Below, piece by piece: positions 1,127 to 40,136 of a DNA stretch of 40,728 bases (its first letter is position 1; the number at the start of each line of letters is the position of its first letter). Below the pieces are notes generated by a model, which made no database searches, was not told the DNA's origin, and saw nothing but the letters and a program-made list of their open reading frames with translations. Position numbers and translations under genes: made by a program. The stretch lies in assembly GCA_030427365.1 (NCBI GenBank), contig JAUHWW010000006.1, forward strand, positions 1 through 40,728. Direction: 5' to 3'. This stretch comes from a bacterium (GTDB lineage Bacteria > Patescibacteriota > Saccharimonadia > Saccharimonadales > SZUA-47).

Positions 1127-1717
1127 CTAGCTACAAGTTTTTAATAGCTCTCGAAAACGCTTCTCTAGCACATCTGAATTATCAATATAATCGGTTGACA
1201 TATACGTGACGTACGCCTCGATACCGACGTGTCGTGCTGCCACGTACACTTCTTCTTTTGAGGCAAACGGGTGAATCCAAACACTTTGTTGCAGCAACTG
1301 ATAGCCAAGCTCTTGCAACTTTCGTATGAATACCACACGGGATTCACGTTTCTCTTCAGGCACATCGAACATTACGAGCCTCCACTTCCTATCCCAATAC
1401 TCAGGCACTGCGACATTTAAAGTGTTATACGAATAGCTTTTGATTCGCTTGTGAGCTTTCGCGGTCAACTCAATCCCATGTTCATAATCGCCGCGTACCA
1501 AACCCTGAGTTTTCATATAGCTACGTAGTCGACTCAGTTCTCTACTCTTCTGTCGCTCATCTAGCCCATCCAGCAGTTTTTTAATCGGTTTATCAAGCAT
1601 AGGGCCAGCGTTCGCACCGCTCAAAGCCATGCCAGTGAGAGATCCTACAGCCAAGCCATAAAGCACTGCATCAATCGCACGAGAAGTCTGCTTGTTTCGT
1701 GAAATCTTTCGTCGCAT
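1127..1717 (-). CDS. PaaX-like transcriptional regulator with Cas2-fold-like C-terminal domain (track ORF extends to 1786; start at MRRKISRN preferred)
   Basis: KWRLVMFDVPEEKRESRVVFIRKLQELGYQLLQQSVWIHPF typical of PaaX C-terminal/Cas2-like proteins; promoter-like TTGTAC-N17-TAATAT lies inside the longer ORF. Confidence 0.75.
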   Translation of the reverse strand: MRRKISRNKQTSRAIDAVLYGLAVGSLTGMALSGANAGPMLDKPIKKLLDGLDERQKSRELSRLRSYMKTQGLVRGDYEHGIELTAKAHKRIKSYSYNTLNVAVPEYWDRKWRLVMFDVPEEKRESRVVFIRKLQELGYQLLQQSVWIHPFASKEEVYVAARHVGIEAYVTYMSTDYIDNSDVLEKRFRELLKTCS

Positions 1718-1718
1718 A

Positions 1719-1756
1719 TGTCTAAAGTTTACCACGGCCGTAGCAAACTTTAGACA
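1719..1756. repeat. 38-bp near-perfect palindrome, second copy, just upstream of the PaaX-like ATG (candidate operator)
   Basis: tgtctaaagtttaccacggccgtagcaaactttagaca; same arms as 1087-1126; predicted TSS ~1751 lies inside. Confidence 0.9.
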
Positions 1757-1822
1757 CATATTATTCGTAATTATTATGTCGTACAATATTGCTAGTTACC
1801 ATCATTCGATGTATGCTTAAGC

Positions 1823-7328: not shown

Positions 7329-7451
7329 TCTGTATCCCCCTTTATAGTGCGAATGCGATATATACCTTGGTATCGTACCGGCAAACTGTCATAAGCGCAA
7401 GCATTTTGTTGCCAAAAATGTGCAAAACCCCACTATTTATCAATTAGATGT

Positions 7452-7481
7452 CATTCTAATGTTCGTGCGAACATTAGAATG
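7452..7481. promoter_or_regulatory. 30-bp palindrome between pilC stop and pilA upstream region
   Basis: cattctaatgttcg-tg-cgaacattagaatg; 14-bp perfect arms; same sequence recurs at 25491-25520. Confidence 0.75.
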
Positions 7482-7482
7482 T

Positions 7483-8691
7483 CTAGATATCTTGGCCAAC
7501 CAGGCCGTAGATTGGGAGCAGTATTGCACTGACGAGTACAAGAGCAACGATACCGAGCACTACCATCAGCAGCGGTTCGATAATGGTCGAGATAGCTTTG
7601 ATTTGATCATCGACTTCTTTTTCATAGTAGTCGGCAGTCTTGGCCATCATCTGTTCAAGCGAGCCTGAGTCTTCACCGATCTTTATCATCTGCGGCACGA
7701 GCTCGAGGAAGTTCTCATCACCCGAAAGAGACTCAGACAGTGATTTTCCGCCTTTGACCTTCTCAGAGGCCCGGTTAATGGACCGCTCTATATGCACATT
7801 ACTGATCGATTTCGAGGTAATATCAAGCACCTGCAGCAGTGGTACACCACTTGCAACCAGCGTGGTTGCAGTACGCGTAAAGCGTGCCATGTACACCTTC
7901 TGGAATAGCTTCGCGAACGGCGGCATTGTTAGCTTCAAACGGTCAATAACTTCCTTGCCACCAGCGGTACGAGCGTACTTCGTCGTCATAAACCCGATAA
8001 CACCAAGTATAAGGATGACCAGCCACCAGAACTGCGTTGCAAAGTCAGATACCGCGAGCAAAAAGCGAGTCTGCACCGGCAAACGAGCGCCTGGCAGGCC
8101 GTTGTACAGCTCACCGACTTGCGGCAGCACCGCGATAACCATAAACCCAACCACACCAATCATCACGAGCAGCACGATCGCTGGGTAGATAAGGGCGCCT
8201 CGCACCTTACTGATCAGTTCCGCGTCTTTCTCCTGCTGCTCCGCAATGCGCTCAAGCGCGGCATCGAGTGTTCCTGATGCTTCACCTGCTGCGACGAGGC
8301 TGACGAATATTTGGTTGAATACTCTTGGGTGCTTACCAAGAGCCTCTGCAAACGGTTTTCCTGCTTCGACACTCTGTATGACATCATTGAGAACGATCTT
8401 TAGCTGAGGGCTTTTGGTTTGATTGGTGACAGACGTAAGGCTCTGTACCAATGGTAAGCCAGCGTTAATCAACGTAGAGAGTTGTCGCGAAAAGATAATC
8501 TTATCTTTGGTTCGTACTTTTCTCTGTAGAAAGCCGAATCGTCCACCAGCGCCAAGCGGCTTCACTGATACCAGTGCGTACCCCTGCTCTTTCACAATCT
8601 TTGCAACGCTGCGTTCATCAGTCGCCTGTACTGTACCGGTAATTTTCTTGCCACTGTCGCCATCACGCGCGACATATTCGAACGTCAACAT
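7483..8691 (-). CDS. pilC: Type IV pilus inner-membrane platform protein
   Basis: TKDKIIFSRQLSTLINAGLPLVQSL and the second T2SSF domain. Confidence 0.95.
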   Translation of the reverse strand: MLTFEYVARDGDSGKKITGTVQATDERSVAKIVKEQGYALVSVKPLGAGGRFGFLQRKVRTKDKIIFSRQLSTLINAGLPLVQSLTSVTNQTKSPQLKIVLNDVIQSVEAGKPFAEALGKHPRVFNQIFVSLVAAGEASGTLDAALERIAEQQEKDAELISKVRGALIYPAIVLLVMIGVVGFMVIAVLPQVGELYNGLPGARLPVQTRFLLAVSDFATQFWWLVILILGVIGFMTTKYARTAGGKEVIDRLKLTMPPFAKLFQKVYMARFTRTATTLVASGVPLLQVLDITSKSISNVHIERSINRASEKVKGGKSLSESLSGDENFLELVPQMIKIGEDSGSLEQMMAKTADYYEKEVDDQIKAISTIIEPLLMVVLGIVALVLVSAILLPIYGLVGQDI

Positions 8692-18480: not shown

Positions 18481-19746
18481 CTAGGGCTGCGGAGCATCCA
18501 CTGGTAAACCAATCACAGGGCTTGGCTCCGGCGGAAGTTCCACTCCGTTGCAAGCGACCTCAATTGGGTTACCGTTATTGAGCCACTCATAGTCATAAAA
18601 ACCTGTCTGGTATGTTCTTTTAATCAGAAATTGTGTAGATATAAATCCAGGATCAGGATCTACTGAGAACCCGACGTTCTGAATCACATTAGGGTTATAA
18701 GTTATATCATAAGGCTCAAAGAGATTTGAATAGTATGTTGCAGTAACTAGTTCATCTCTATCGTTCTCAAAAACAAAATTGAATTCAGGATAAATTCCGT
18801 CCATACAAGATTTAGTAATATCTGTATTCTCTTCAGGAATACCACCATCCCTCGAATCAAACAGTCGCTCTGGTGTTTGCGAGGTTCCGTTAACTTGACC
18901 ATTTACGTCAGCAATAAAGTGAGCGCTAGCAAGAGTATTAAAGCAGATATCACCGTTTTCGTCGGTTGAGAGAATCGTGGTGTTGGCAATAGTTTGACCT
19001 GGTGCATAGTTAAGAATTGAAGCATCTGGCATTGCTTCACTGCATGGCCATGCGGTCACGTGACCTGCGGCTTCAGGCTGAGTGATAGTTGCATTGATGG
19101 CGTATTGGGTGTTTGGTTCACCGACACGGACTGGTGCTGTCTCACCAGCATCTAACCGCACTTTTCTATCATCCCTCGAATCAAACAGTCGCTCTGCCGT
19201 TTGCCCAGTTCCGTTTACCTGGCCGTTTTTATCAACAACGAGGTGTGCAGCAGCAAGTGTGTTGAAGCAAATGTCACCATTTTCATCAGTAGTAAGGATA
19301 GTCGTGTTGGCAATAGTTTGACCTGGTGCATAGTTAAGAATTGAAGCATCTGGCATTGCTTCACTGCATGGCCATGCGGTCACGTGACCTGCGGCTTCAG
19401 GCTGAGTGATAGTTGCATTGATGGCGTATTGGGTGTTTGGTTCACCGACAGAAACCTTAATCGTCTCACCGGCTTGAGGCTTATCATTGTCCTCTGCAGC
19501 TGCTGCAGTAGGCAACAAAGCAAGTCCGGCAAGCAAACCTACTGTAGCCTTAACCTTCTTTGAGCGAGGTTTTTTCTTTTCTTGTGTTATTGCGCGTGGA
19601 GAACTAGTAGTAGCAGTGTCGGTATGGTTATGACGTTCAAGCCAGCGGCCAAAAACACCCGTTTCCGGACTTATGCTCTTACTTCCTTGAAGGAAATAGC
19701 TCGATTTGTCGTTGCTTCTCGTAAGTAATGACTTTAATAGTCCCAT
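18481..19746 (-). CDS. Secreted surface protein with two tandem ~108-aa repeats of an actinobacterial-type domain
   Basis: Long basic N-region plus hydrophobic segment; repeated GEPNTQYAINATITQPEAAGHVTAWPCSEAMPDASILNYAPGQTIANTTILxTDENGDICFNTLAxAHxxxDxNGQVNGTxQTxERLFDSRD. Confidence 0.8.
   Translation of the reverse strand: MGLLKSLLTRSNDKSSYFLQGSKSISPETGVFGRWLERHNHTDTATTSSPRAITQEKKKPRSKKVKATVGLLAGLALLPTAAAAEDNDKPQAGETIKVSVGEPNTQYAINATITQPEAAGHVTAWPCSEAMPDASILNYAPGQTIANTTILTTDENGDICFNTLAAAHLVVDKNGQVNGTGQTAERLFDSRDDRKVRLDAGETAPVRVGEPNTQYAINATITQPEAAGHVTAWPCSEAMPDASILNYAPGQTIANTTILSTDENGDICFNTLASAHFIADVNGQVNGTSQTPERLFDSRDGGIPEENTDITKSCMDGIYPEFNFVFENDRDELVTATYYSNLFEPYDITYNPNVIQNVGFSVDPDPGFISTQFLIKRTYQTGFYDYEWLNNGNPIEVACNGVELPPEPSPVIGLPVDAPQP
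18980..19126. repeat. 147-bp direct repeat, copy 1
   Basis: identical by eye to 19304-19450, offset 324 bp (108 codons). Confidence 0.9.
19304..19450. repeat. 147-bp direct repeat, copy 2
   Basis: identical by eye to 18980-19126. Confidence 0.9.
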
Positions 19747-20198: not shown

Positions 20199-20204
20199 AG
20201 TGTG

Positions 20205-21290
20205 ATGGCTTTAGAAATTGGAATTGTAGGCTTGCCAAATGTTGGCAAATCGACCCTATTCAACGCACTCACAGACAGCAATATTCTCGCTGCTAACTAT
20301 CCCTTTGCAACCATTGAACCGAACACCGGCATTGTTCCCGTACCTGATGAACGCTTAGGAAAGCTCGCCGACATGTACCACTCACAGAAAGTCATCCCAG
20401 CCACCGTCACATTTGTCGATATCGCAGGCTTAGTCGAAGGAGCAAGTAAAGGCGAGGGTCTCGGCAACCAATTCCTCAGCCATATTCGTTCGTGCAACGC
20501 AATTGTTCAAGTCGTGCGTGCATTTGAGTCAGGCGACGTTTTGCGCAGTGACTCATCAAAAGACCCAGAACATGACATTGATGTTATCCTCACCGAGCTG
20601 GTCCTCGCCGATCTGCAGACTGTCGATAATCGCTTGCCACGCTTTGCTAAAGAAGCTAGAGCAAACCCAAAGATGAAGCCACTCGCTGATGACTTGCAAA
20701 AGATAAAAGATGTGTTCGAAGCCGGCAATCCACTCTGGAAAGACGCGGCGTTGCTGGAGGCATACCATGAACACTTCAGCGATTTGCAGCTGATGACAGC
20801 CAAGCCGATTCTTTATTTGTTCAACCTCGACGAAGACGATCTAGGAAATACTGAAAAGCAAGCAGAACTTCAAAAGCTTGTTGCCCCCGCCCCTGCCGTG
20901 TTTGTCAGTGCGAAACTCGAGGATGAGCTGCGCGGACTCGACGAGCCTGACCGCGATGAAATGCTCGCGAGCTACGGCCAAAAAGAGCCTGGCCTACACA
21001 AGGTAATCAAAGCTGCCTATGATTTGCTTGGCTTGCAAAGCTATCTCACTGCCGGTGAGAAAGAAGTTCGCGCTTGGACAGTGCGAAAAGGCTCCACTGC
21101 TCCGCAGGCCGCTGGCGTCATTCACAGTGATTTTGAAAAAGGCTTTATCGCCGCGCAGATCGTCGACTACGATGACTTGATGGCCGCCGGCTCAGAATCA
21201 GCCGCTCGCTCCCAGGGTAAACTCCGCACCGAGGGCAAAACCTACATCATGCAGCCGGGTGATGTCGTTGAATTTCGATTCAACAACTGA
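20205..21290 (+). CDS. ychF: Ribosome-binding ATPase YchF (Obg-family GTPase fold)
   Basis: LEIGIVGLPNVGKSTLFNALTDSNILAANYPFATIEPNTGIVPVPDERL; C-term TYIMQPGDVVEFRFNN. Track start GTG 20202. Confidence 0.97.
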   Translation: MALEIGIVGLPNVGKSTLFNALTDSNILAANYPFATIEPNTGIVPVPDERLGKLADMYHSQKVIPATVTFVDIAGLVEGASKGEGLGNQFLSHIRSCNAIVQVVRAFESGDVLRSDSSKDPEHDIDVILTELVLADLQTVDNRLPRFAKEARANPKMKPLADDLQKIKDVFEAGNPLWKDAALLEAYHEHFSDLQLMTAKPILYLFNLDEDDLGNTEKQAELQKLVAPAPAVFVSAKLEDELRGLDEPDRDEMLASYGQKEPGLHKVIKAAYDLLGLQSYLTAGEKEVRAWTVRKGSTAPQAAGVIHSDFEKGFIAAQIVDYDDLMAAGSESAARSQGKLRTEGKTYIMQPGDVVEFRFNN

Positions 21291-21301
21291 TAATGCAGCG
21301 C

Positions 21302-21376
21302 GGAAAGAGTAGCCGTAGAAGCGGCTTTGCCGACTTCAACGCGCGACATGAGAAAACCTGCAAGGTTGTCTCATAG
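21302..21376 (+). repeat. Structured dispersed repeat, copy A (3' of ychF)
   Basis: ggaaagagtagccgtagaagcggctttgccgacttcaacgcgcgacatgagaaaacctgcaaggttgtctcatag; two hairpins; homologous to copies B and C. Confidence 0.85.
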
Positions 21377-21382
21377 ATTGCG

Positions 21383-21426
21383 TCATGCAGCCAGGCGATG
21401 TAGTTGAATTCAGGTTCAACAACTAG
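21383..21426 (+). pseudogene. Duplicated ychF 3' terminus (encodes MQPGDVVEFRFNN*)
   Basis: tcatgcagccaggcgatgtagttgaattcaggttcaacaactag vs 21247-21290; all coding differences synonymous, stop TGA->TAG. Confidence 0.9.
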
Positions 21427-25457: not shown

Positions 25458-25490
25458 ATCAGGATCCCCATTTACAGATGCAATATATCA

Positions 25491-25520
25491 CATTCTAATG
25501 TTCGTTCGAATATTAGAATG
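25491..25520. promoter_or_regulatory. 30-bp palindrome between wHTH gene and NUDIX gene, same family as 7452-7481
   Basis: cattctaatgttcg-tt-cgaatattagaatg. Confidence 0.75.
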
Positions 25521-25902
25521 TCTCTAGAATCTTTTTTATTGGATACGAGATCTTATCGTTTGGGATATCGCGCAGATCCTTCAGGCGAACAATCCCCTGC
25601 CCCTCATAGCAGTGGACGACCGCGTCCTCAGGCAACACCACTTCAAAAACTGCTGTGTGCCTCTCACCATTTTCATCGACTACTTTATAGTCGACAACCA
25701 GACGTAATTGATCTTCCGCTGCCGTAACGCCGGTTTCCTCATATAATTCACGGATAGCTGTTTGCTCGAAAGATTCACCAGGTTCACCTGCACCACCCCA
25801 TACGGCATAACGACCTGGGCTTGGAATAGTTGATATATCGTCGCGGTGCTGCAAGAGATACTCATCTCCCTGCTTCAGCAAAACCCCCGCAAACTTTCTC
25901 AT
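25513..25902 (-). CDS. NUDIX hydrolase
   Basis: MRKFAGVLLKQGDEYLLQHRDD...GGAGEPGESFEQTAIRELYEETGV; start 25902 preferred over 26013. Confidence 0.9.
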   Translation of the reverse strand: MRKFAGVLLKQGDEYLLQHRDDISTIPSPGRYAVWGGAGEPGESFEQTAIRELYEETGVTAAEDQLRLVVDYKVVDENGERHTAVFEVVLPEDAVVHCYEGQGIVRLKDLRDIPNDKISYPIKKILETF

Positions 25903-29614: not shown

Positions 29615-31819
29615 TTAGAAGTTTTCGTCTAGCACGTCGTCAGGGGTGCCACCCTCGGCCGCTGGCTGGCCAAATACATCGTCCATACTGCTGATCAGCA
29701 CGTCACGCGGTTTGCTGCCGTTGGCAGGACCGATAATGCCCTGCTCTTCCATCTCGTCCATGAGCCGACTAGCACGACCATAACCGATACGCAGCCGACG
29801 CTGCAGTAAGCTGGTTGAAGCCTTTCGGTTCTCTAGCACCACGTGCACGGCGTCGCGGAACATATCATCGTCGCTATCGCTGCCGGACATGTCAGACTCT
29901 GCCACAATGCCGCCTTTGCCATTGAGCTGCACCGGCTGGGCAACTACTTCATCATCATACTGCGGCGGCCGCTGCATACGGAGGAAGTCATTGACCTTGA
30001 CGGTCTCTTCATCGGTGATAAAGGCACCCTGCACGCGAATTGGCTTCGGCATATCGGCAGTGGTGAACAACATATCACCCATACCGAGCAATTTCTCCGC
30101 CCCCACGCCGTCGATGATTGTGCGGCTGTCGACCTGGCTCGCCACGGTAAAGGCGATACGCGCAGGTACGTTGGCCTTGATGAGGCCGGTGATAACATCG
30201 ACCGATGGTCGCTGCGTTGCGAGCACCAAGTGAATACCAGCTGCTCGCGCCTTTTGGGCGATACGAACAATCAGCGCCTCAACGTCGCGCGCAGCCATCA
30301 TCATCAAATCAGCGAGCTCATCAATGACGATGACGATATACGGCATCGCATCCTGATCCTTCAGGCTGTTAAAGCCAGCAATATCACGCTTGCCATTGGC
30401 TGAGAACGTTTTCAGGCGGCGCTCCATTTCTGAAACTGCCCATTTCAGCGCGCTGATACACTTCTCAGGCTCGGTAATCACTGGCGTCAGCAAATGAGGA
30501 ATATCGTTATACGGTGTCAGCTCAACTTGCTTTGGATCGACAAGAATAAGCTTCATATCTGATGGCGAATTTTTATACAGCAGGCTCGTCAGCAAACTGT
30601 TGATCATGACCGACTTACCAGAGCCTGTCTGACCAGCGATCAAAAGGTGCGGCATTTTGTTCAGCTCACCGACGACTGGCTTACCAGCAATATCTCGTCC
30701 GACAACGAAACTCAACTGTTCCTTCGCAGACGTCCACTTCTTGTCATCGAGCACGCCAGCAACGCGCACCATAGCTGGCTTTACGTTTGGCACTTCGATG
30801 CCTACTAGGCGCGTCCCGGGTATTGGCGCTTCGACGCGGATACTTTGCGCGGCCAAACTAAGGGCTAATTCCCTATCAAGTGCCGAGATTTTACTCAACC
30901 TCGTGCCACTTGGCGGTTTCAGCGTAAACTGCGTGACACGCGGCCCAATATTTGCACCATCCATTTCAACATCGATATTAAAATTCTGGAATGTATCTTG
31001 GATAAGATCAGCATTATTGTTCACATCACCAGCATCGGCTTTGTCCTGCTTCTGGATGAGTAAATCAGTAGTTGGGAACTGCCAATTCGGGTCGACTGCC
31101 TCGGTGAGGGCTTCATGGTTTTCATCAGGACTAAGGCTAGCGACGCTGTTTTTCATGCTGCTTCGACGTGTAGCCGCTTTGTCTTTGTCAGTGAGTACAG
31201 GGACACCTTGATTCAACTTAAATCCCTTTGATTCTTCTGTCTTTGCTTTCAGCTCTTCCATGTCTGTATCTTCGCGTTCACGACGCTTGAATGGCGTCAG
31301 CAATGCTTTTAGCGGCCACCCGAATGTCCAGAACAGTACGAGAATAAGCAGCGCGAAAAATAATATAGCAGCTGGGATTTTATCGAATAAGCCAAGGCTC
31401 AGCCCGCCGATTAGCTCGCCTAACGCGCCACCCTTGCCATCAACCCAACCATCGACTGCGTCCTCGGTCGCAGTCAAAACATGAAGCCATACAGAGAAAA
31501 CAACTAACAGCAGTGACATGCTCAGTACGCGCCATGCTTCGAGATCATGTTCCTCAGCGCGCAGCTTATGCACACCCCAGTATGTTAACGCCACCGGCGT
31601 TAGATAGGCTGCCCCACCGAGCAAATCATACACAAGATCAAACATGCCAACAGGCAATGAACCGCCGGTGCCGAAGCCGCCGAGTAGCAGAAATACTGCC
31701 ACAACAATCATCAAGACCGAGGCAGTTTGCCTGACTAGCATATTCGGCTCTTTCGGCACTCGTGCCGGAGCTTTTTTACTTGCCTTCTTCTTTGAGCTGC
31801 GTTTTTTTCTTTTTGCCAT
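29615..31819 (-). CDS. ftsK: DNA translocase FtsK/SpoIIIE
   Basis: N-terminal TM segments; HLLIAGQTGSGKSVMINSLLTSLLY; LVLATQRPSVDVITGLIKANVPARIAF; gamma domain. Confidence 0.96.
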   Translation of the reverse strand: MAKRKKRSSKKKASKKAPARVPKEPNMLVRQTASVLMIVVAVFLLLGGFGTGGSLPVGMFDLVYDLLGGAAYLTPVALTYWGVHKLRAEEHDLEAWRVLSMSLLLVVFSVWLHVLTATEDAVDGWVDGKGGALGELIGGLSLGLFDKIPAAILFFALLILVLFWTFGWPLKALLTPFKRREREDTDMEELKAKTEESKGFKLNQGVPVLTDKDKAATRRSSMKNSVASLSPDENHEALTEAVDPNWQFPTTDLLIQKQDKADAGDVNNNADLIQDTFQNFNIDVEMDGANIGPRVTQFTLKPPSGTRLSKISALDRELALSLAAQSIRVEAPIPGTRLVGIEVPNVKPAMVRVAGVLDDKKWTSAKEQLSFVVGRDIAGKPVVGELNKMPHLLIAGQTGSGKSVMINSLLTSLLYKNSPSDMKLILVDPKQVELTPYNDIPHLLTPVITEPEKCISALKWAVSEMERRLKTFSANGKRDIAGFNSLKDQDAMPYIVIVIDELADLMMMAARDVEALIVRIAQKARAAGIHLVLATQRPSVDVITGLIKANVPARIAFTVASQVDSRTIIDGVGAEKLLGMGDMLFTTADMPKPIRVQGAFITDEETVKVNDFLRMQRPPQYDDEVVAQPVQLNGKGGIVAESDMSGSDSDDDMFRDAVHVVLENRKASTSLLQRRLRIGYGRASRLMDEMEEQGIIGPANGSKPRDVLISSMDDVFGQPAAEGGTPDDVLDENF

Positions 31820-31833
31820 AATTTCCGCTTTGC

Positions 31834-31910
31834 TTTAGAGACAAACCTAGCGGTTTTTCTCTAGTCGCGCCGTGCGGTCGAATAAATCGCCGCGCGGGCT
31901 ACTCTTTTCC
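31834..31910 (-). repeat. Structured dispersed repeat, copy C (in the predicted ftsK 5' leader)
   Basis: + strand tttagagacaaacctagcggtttttctctagtcgcgccgtgcggtcgaataaatcgccgcgcgggctactcttttcc; aligns to reverse complements of A and B. Confidence 0.75.
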
Positions 31911-31957
31911 CTACCTGCTATTTTATCACTTTGATAGAAGAAAGGAGCTATGTTGTT

Positions 31958-39291: not shown

Positions 39292-39984
39292 TTATGCAAG
39301 CAGTCGCTGGTAGATTGTTTCTGCATCCAGCTCTTCAGGCGTAATAGCGTCGTCAACAGACCACTGTGCAACGCTCGTGCGGCGCAGACGAGATAGATGT
39401 CCGCTTGTTCCCAGCGCCTTAGCAATATCCTCTGCTAAGACGCGTATATACGTTCCGCTGCCGACATGCGTCTTGATTCGTACCGTCGGCCAGGTACATG
39501 ATTCGATTGTGATATCAAAAATCTTCACTGTTCGGGATGCGATATCCACTGTTTCGCCCTTGCGAGCCAACTCATAGGCTCGTTTCCCATTCACCATTAC
39601 GGCGCTATAGCTTGGCGGTGTCTGTTCAATTGCACCGATAAACTGCGGCAACACTGCCTCTACGTCTTTTTGGTTACGCACAGGAGCATTGTCTACGCTA
39701 ATAAGCTCTCCTTCAGCATCACCAGTGGTCGATGCTACCCCGAAGGTTATCTCGGCTTCATAGGTTTTATCATGTTTGATGAGCTCAGGTACCTTTTTTG
39801 TGTATGTTTTGCCGATGACCAAGACAAGCAGTCCTGTTGCCATAGGGTCCAACGTTCCCGTGTGCCCTACTTTCACCTGACGCGGTTTTTTGCCCTCACT
39901 ACTAGCGATGATTCGCCTAACAAAATTCACAACATCAAAAGACGTCCAGCCCTTTGGCTTATCAATAAGCAGCAAACCTTCCAC
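39292..39984 (-). CDS. truB: tRNA pseudouridine(55) synthase
   Basis: GTG start; [44 protein letters not shown]. Confidence 0.96.
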
Positions 39985-40136
39985 TAAAGAACACCTTTCA
40001 CGGAAGGAAAAAGAGCAGCCGGCGAAGTGGCTTTGCCAACTTCACCGCGCGATGAGAAAAAACCATCAGGGTTTTGTCTCATAGGTTCAAACGATGTCCA
40101 ACCCTTTGGCTTATCAACGAGAAGTATACCTTCCAT
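39984..40136 (-). CDS. 50-codon leader ORF: diverged copy of the truB N-terminus plus repeat-encoded peptide
   Basis: ATG...TAG translates as [53 protein letters not shown] overlaps truB GTG by 1 nt (TAGTG). Confidence 0.7.
   Translation of the reverse strand: MEGILLVDKPKGWTSFEPMRQNPDGFFSSRGEVGKATSPAALFPSVKGVL
40002..40084 (+). repeat. Structured dispersed repeat, copy B (between truB and its duplicated 5' end)
   Basis: ggaaggaaaaagagcagccggcgaagtggctttgccaacttcaccgcgcgatgagaaaaaaccatcagggttttgtctcatag. Confidence 0.85.

Follow-up and report, generated by a model that had tools for sequence, protein, structure and literature searches.

How a gene comes to possess two beginnings, and which of them it uses, is the question raised by truB in the window, by which we mean the whole stretch of 40,728 nucleotides that was analysed. 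The first-pass annotation had described a truB 5′ end duplicated across a repeat (copy B), and alignment confirms this: the two termini are ~80% identical across ~54 nt, and the left and right flanks of the repeat align with a score of 62, against a maximum of 30 in 1,500 mismatched pairs of flanks taken from different copies. The differences between the termini are mostly synonymous, as had been reported, and translation likewise reproduces the 50-codon ORF that shares one base with the truB GTG (TAGTG); its coding part occupies 40136–39987 on the minus strand, its TAG 39986–39984, and the GTG begins at 39984. Copy B, whose 5′ end faces the cut-off terminus (the relic) and whose 3′ end faces intact truB, is predicted to fold into two hairpins (z −3.3) and scores 97.7 bits against a covariance model, R1, of which it is itself one of the four seed sequences.

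The terminus joined to the element had been taken as the true start of truB. The GTG on that side is indeed the functional one, but it is the upstream copy, the relic, that holds the native position: it stands behind the native upstream gene, in a context common to four relatives. In these four members of the family, for which the truB start was inspected, the gene begins just downstream of the same neighbour, recognised by its PQF-containing C-terminus, and the site carries no element. Homologues of truB were found in nine of ten genomes searched, the source genome counted among them. In polarizing the two arms by means of relatives, operon position and a few residues were informative, synonymous sites being saturated (TruB is 61% identical within the genus). 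A search of 393 genomes for a donor in which the element adjoins this truB terminus found none. The Shine–Dalgarno-like motif ahead of the truB GTG (Table 1) has counterparts at the other genes affected at their 5′ ends (tpiA, GGAGGGG; typA, GAGGA; msrA, AAAGGG).

Table 1 Features of the truB and ychF loci and of the third copy of the element in the window
Feature	Position	Strand	Basis and remarks
Intact truB	39292–39984	minus	GTG start, 230 aa; by translation
Right end of insertion	39985–40005	minus	Shine–Dalgarno-like GAAAGG ahead of truB GTG
Copy B of structured element	40006–40081	minus	~76 nt; hairpin 1, hairpin 2, pyrimidine tail
Relic of native truB 5′ end	40087–40136	minus	16 codons; alignment with truB 5′ end
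Leader ORF	39984–40136	minus	50 codons + TAG; relic, then element in frame
Intact ychF	20202–21290	plus	Translation; element-side 3′ end ..MQPGDVVEFRFNN, then stop
Copy A of element	21300–21373	minus	Covariance-model match 81.8 bits, seed member; 3′ end against intact ychF 3′ end
Relic of ychF 3′ end	21385–21426	plus	MQPGDVVEFRFNN, then stop; five changed codons, all synonymous
Third window copy	31837–31911	plus	Covariance-model match 88.3 bits, seed member

The same layout of terminus, repeat and diverged terminus had been claimed for a second gene, and it is found at copy A, where the real 3′ end of ychF is followed by the reversed repeat and then by a second 3′ end; ychF homologues are present in every one of the ten genomes searched. 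With four copies as its seed, a covariance model finds seven copies in the 0.94-Mb source genome, three of them inside the window and four elsewhere; a further, weak match falls on the opposite strand of copy B. The third window copy has its 5′ side toward the start of an ftsK-like ORF (29615–31819, minus strand), and no relic was detected there; a counterpart of this copy occurs in L055, beside a homologous gene. Outside the window, the copy at C10:122176–122244 (L008) is again accompanied by the relic of a gene 3′ end.

Covariation strongly supports an element made of two hairpins. Across 105 copies, 91.6% of cells in the two helices are paired, versus 70.0% after shuffling, and double changes number 547 where 137 are expected; because the alignment follows the model, pairing is partly biased to the structure, but slid controls gave 42–51%. 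The 3′ tail of the element mirrors the pyrimidine arm of hairpin 1 and is thus parallel-complementary to its purine arm, with matching pairs such as GAGGGGAGA with CTCCCCTCT, GAGAGGAGG with CTCTCCTCC, and GAGAGGGAA with CTCTCCCTT. The mean score of hairpin 1 with its own tail is 6.08, versus 4.74 with permuted tails (s.d. 0.10, which understates the uncertainty, related copies being non-independent); in the commonest variant, the fit requires one skipped base. This parallel covariation of tail and purine arm suggests a triple helix; one of the pyrimidine-motif type would yield such a pattern. In several RNAs (TnpB/Cas12-type guide RNAs, ToxI and MALAT1), a third, pyrimidine strand runs alongside a hairpin's purine strand in the same direction, and the element would resemble these; by contrast, no TnpB-type protein was found in 41 genomes, and the triplex of the element is read from covariation only. 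Three copies (L050, L054 and L096) hold an extra hairpin of ~30 nt in the loop of hairpin 1.

The repeat is apparently an undescribed structured element, ~100 bp long and non-coding, found almost only in Saccharibacteria. About 200 copies were examined overall. Covariance-model matches occur in 27 of the 41 genomes sampled, with up to 21 per genome, and in a wider sample of the phylum strong matches came almost only from the same order (elsewhere there were a few weak matches and a single strong one, from a fragmented assembly). Named genomes scanned with one exact consensus pattern returned 55 stretches, mostly labelled Saccharibacteria, with a few unlabelled and one labelled Nomurabacteria. 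In Rfam, nothing in the window reached gathering score, and four other copies had no match at E values up to 0.5; the papers covered by literature searches contain no account of such an element. Viral contigs contained no match to that same exact pattern, which does not cover diverged copies, and viral carriage was set aside as a candidate on this result. Copies occur in both orientations, beside many unrelated neighbours. Orthologous copies stand beside an mraZ-like gene in four genera (L002, L038, L062 and L090, at 1501), with a conserved left flank containing TTGACT; this is possibly an ancestral copy with a promoter. In L007 (1480–1510), a holA-like gene seemingly receives its stop codon from the left end of the element (CTATGA).

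Whether each copy is flanked by a duplicated gene terminus had been proposed as a check. The duplication does recur, at the L008 copy and around copies in many other genomes, so that the refuting condition set beforehand, its absence from all other copies, fails; it is seen at a minority of sites. Direct repeats with a flank score of at least 30 were found at 23 of the 147 distinct copies for which both flanks were available, the maximum for mismatched pairs being 30; a few of these are weak or misplaced, and ~20 of 147 (about one copy in eight) are counted as secure, with scores of up to 103 against that null maximum. Most copies have no detectable relic. The direct repeats measure 15–65 nt, end 4–14 nt before hairpin 1 (once 21 nt), and begin 7–23 nt past the end of the model, or 37 nt at a yjbR-like gene, whose nucleotide alignment is interrupted. 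Of the two arms, one extends into a complete gene and the other is truncated; in every assignable case the complete gene lies on the 3′ side of the element and the relic on its 5′ side, and the repeat's outer edge falls at gene termini. Going by our reading of the translations rather than by database assignment, relics occur at the 3′ ends of alaS (three), uvrD (two), tlyA (two), smpB, ychF, fmt, the yjbR-like gene and an ftsE-like gene, at the 5′ ends of truB, tpiA, typA and msrA, and at a tRNA-Pro gene. Most are thus at gene 3′ ends, with the element antisense to the gene. The one-sidedness is also seen among copies that abut a gene on one side only: 14 of 20 with the gene on the 3′ side have relics, versus 3 of 53 with it on the 5′ side (p = 5e-8). 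A later set of 56 copies gave four or five further relics, tRNA-Pro again among them; the relic rate was lower in this set, and the left/right test had no power there. Inverted similarity between flanks did not rise above the null. The msrA-like gene of L145 (242–901) is enclosed by two inverted elements, beyond which lie relics of its own 5′ and 3′ ends; this is a composite gene replacement.

By codon position (1/2/3), relic and gene differ at 19, 8 and 58 sites, and 55 changed codons are synonymous and 17 non-synonymous, with ratios of 5 to 0 at ychF, at uvrD and at alaS in L044. A larger share of non-synonymous codons would be expected if, of two arms identical at first, one had decayed neutrally with mutation rates equal (p ~3e-4 to 6e-8, by measure); once the gene may change at the relic's own pace, decay is no longer rejected by codon position alone (p = 0.43), although synonymy still leans against it (p = 0.02). 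Neutral decay of an initially identical copy is, on these counts, disfavoured. Changed codons also cluster toward the terminus beside the element (0 of 5,000 permutations), perhaps partly as a bias, since protein ends evolve fast and local alignments end on matches; at fmt, for example, the relic reads SASEFLAGYR and the gene SASEFLLGHR, and the adjoining sequence is identical at 37 of 38 nt. Mostly synonymous, element-proximal differences suggest that the intact, element-side terminus derives from a diverged ortholog, that is, from a donor. Not all loci conform: the relics of typA and of alaS in L126 show mainly non-synonymous changes, as simple decay would give, and the arms are identical at L113 (50 of 50) and L069 (38 of 38), pairs that would be recent or from near relatives.

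The overlap of leader and truB had been thought to allow translational coupling or regulation. A leader does run through the element in all four cases at gene 5′ ends, and each terminates 6–13 nt into the duplicated arm, level with the real start codon or immediately downstream of it. However, for two of the three sense frames, 60–70% of copies have no stop, and four open leaders out of four have a chance probability of ~0.04; a gene 3′ end, the site of most relics, leaves no room for a leader. A selected regulatory leader for truB is therefore not borne out: openness is near chance. Most probably the leader ORF is a by-product, through which translation may be coupled at TAGTG; we do not read it as a sign of regulation. 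The broader idea that the element is a regulatory RNA or leader controlling adjacent genes, truB being under a coupled leader peptide, would account for the strong RNA-like covariation and for the open leaders that end near real starts, yet it sits badly with near-chance openness, with an element that occurs in both orientations beside many unrelated genes, and with relics that are mostly at 3′ ends and antisense to the gene; we regard it as very improbable. An assembly or binning artefact is less probable still, since one geometry recurs, with this element separating the arms, in many independent assemblies and genes, even if the genomes are drafts and metagenome bins.

What is observed is a family with a covarying two-hairpin fold and a recurrent order of native gene-end relic, element (5′ to 3′) and intact gene, and in this structured family with its relic signature we have high confidence. 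The element probably constitutes a mobile family of repeats in Saccharibacteria, able to leave relics of gene ends where it inserts. Our main reading, that it is a mobile-like small non-coding repeat inserting by way of homology on its 3′ side, is, taken as a whole, given a probability of about 0.5. The donor DNA would begin with the 5′ end of the element and run on into the neighbouring gene terminus of a related donor, and this terminus would pair, on the 3′ side of the element, with the recipient's copy of the same gene. The recipient strand would then be extended past the terminus by 15–65 nt, and the 5′ end of the element would be ligated inside the recipient gene, 15–65 nt past the terminus, so that the native terminus would stay behind as a relic and the gene would regain its end from the donor. 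At truB, the gene stays in use through the start codon and ribosome-binding site on the element side.

A plausible route for such an insertion would be natural transformation, with a hairpin-protected 5′ flap being ligated instead of trimmed, a step that we put forward tentatively. The 5′ boundary of the element lies a few nucleotides before hairpin 1 or before a mini-hairpin that precedes it (GGCTTCGCC-like; by inspection, present in most cases with a longer left gap and absent from those with a short gap), which would fit an end trimmed back to structure. Saccharibacteria can take up DNA by natural transformation (PMC10633639), and one-ended homologous integration has precedent in competent bacteria (PMC3240628). 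ComEC is encoded in the source genome and was found in 24 of 27 element-bearing genomes, versus 9 of 14 without the element, a difference that is not significant (p about 0.1); the search gave no match in three element-bearing genomes. More speculatively, and no more probably than the flap step, the element might be mobile with no protein of its own: a structured, triplex-containing DNA end would protect transformed DNA and be ligated beside a homologous terminus, and the element would spread between species carrying replacement gene ends, with host competence and replication machinery only.

Two enzymatic routes are real alternatives to homology-guided insertion, each of them unlikely in our estimate, if far less so than a regulatory RNA. 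In one, the repeat would be a miniature integrative element that a site-specific recombinase moves in trans and that enters gene ends with a replacement terminus, the direct repeats then being attL and attR. Genomic islands that enter gene ends are well known (for example, PMC8409611), and such a recombinase would explain targets at 5′ ends, 3′ ends and a tRNA, recurrent targets such as alaS, uvrD and tlyA, and regenerated termini with relics on the far side. It is harder to reconcile with an element of only ~100 bp and with many unrelated target sequences in one family. A search confined to tyrosine recombinases, in the source genome and in copy-rich G007, G008, G038 and G040, found nothing beyond one Xer-like gene, which nearly all relatives possess with or without the element; a dedicated tyrosine integrase was set aside for these genomes on that basis. 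The other route is a staggered-nick integrase that makes long target-site duplications (15–65 nt), so that the arms are initially identical and later diverge or, through allele exchange, come to differ. The identical arms of L113 and L069 and the non-synonymous decay of the typA relic in L094 speak for it. However, diverged relics at untranslated 3′ positions (ychF, uvrD and alaS in L044) keep their purely synonymous, coding-type differences, the outer edge of the repeat matches gene termini, the geometry is one-sided, and no candidate enzyme was found.

Other enzymes that could copy or move the element were sought by domain. Reverse transcriptase (PF00078) is absent from the source genome and present in 2 of the 41 genomes overall, and RT-based copying of a retroelement or SINE-like kind was rejected on its absence from the source genome. 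A TnpB-type nuclease (PF07282) was found in none of the 41 genomes, which removes a guide-RNA element of the TnpB/IS200–IS605 type. The Y1 transposase of REP/RAYT systems (PF01797) is absent from the source genome and from copy-rich G005, G007, G038 and G040 and shows no association with the element across the 41 genomes (p = 0.74), so that a REP/RAYT system was rejected as well.

Comparison with known repeats places the element beside several classes. Like RAYT-mobilised REP/BIME sequences, it is short, multicopy, hairpin-forming and mostly outside genes; unlike them, it has a much longer covarying two-hairpin fold, a pairing tail and gene-end relics, and no association with Y1_Tnp. Rickettsia palindromic elements (RPE), ERIC and RU are small mobile repeats of ~100–150 bp with stem-loops that can be read through in frame, traits that the element shares, whereas its sequence and hosts are different; we know of no gene-terminus relics for these three. 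MITEs are likewise small, non-autonomous and multicopy, but the element has no evident terminal inverted repeats, its ends being hairpins (by inspection), and its flanking repeats are 15–65 nt and one-sided where those of MITEs are short and fixed; in neither trait does the element fit this class. A direct repeat of a gene terminus together with a regenerated gene, as in gene-end integrative elements, is found at the ~20 of 147 copies counted above, and gene-end genomic islands with tyrosine recombinases also leave a diverged or partial terminus as a direct repeat; the element differs from them in being ~100 bp and non-coding, in having many targets per family and in that no dedicated integrase was found. 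Homology-facilitated illegitimate recombination in transformation, finally, shares the combination of homology on one side and non-homologous joining on the other (PMC3240628), whereas the non-homologous joint of the element recurs near its 5′ end and leaves a duplication.

The family is widespread in Saccharibacteria, which are among the few genetically manipulable Patescibacteria, and the signature of relic, element and restored gene would record interspecies transfer in core genes (alaS, truB and ychF). It further draws attention to core genes whose ends are hybrid and whose annotated start sites mislead. If insertion is guided by homology and needs no enzyme of the element's own, selfish DNA would have a new means of spreading.

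The window contains further repeats. Near-identical 40-nt palindromes at 1085–1126 and 1716–1759, one of them perfect over 2 × 20 nt, stand at both ends of a 219-codon ORF (1127–1786, minus strand). A second palindrome family (CATTCTAATGTTCG..CGAACATTAGAATG) has two copies 18 kb apart, at 7445–7484 and 25484–25523, which are 88% identical. Two 281-nt direct repeats, also 88% identical, lie at 18846–19450 within a 421-codon ORF.
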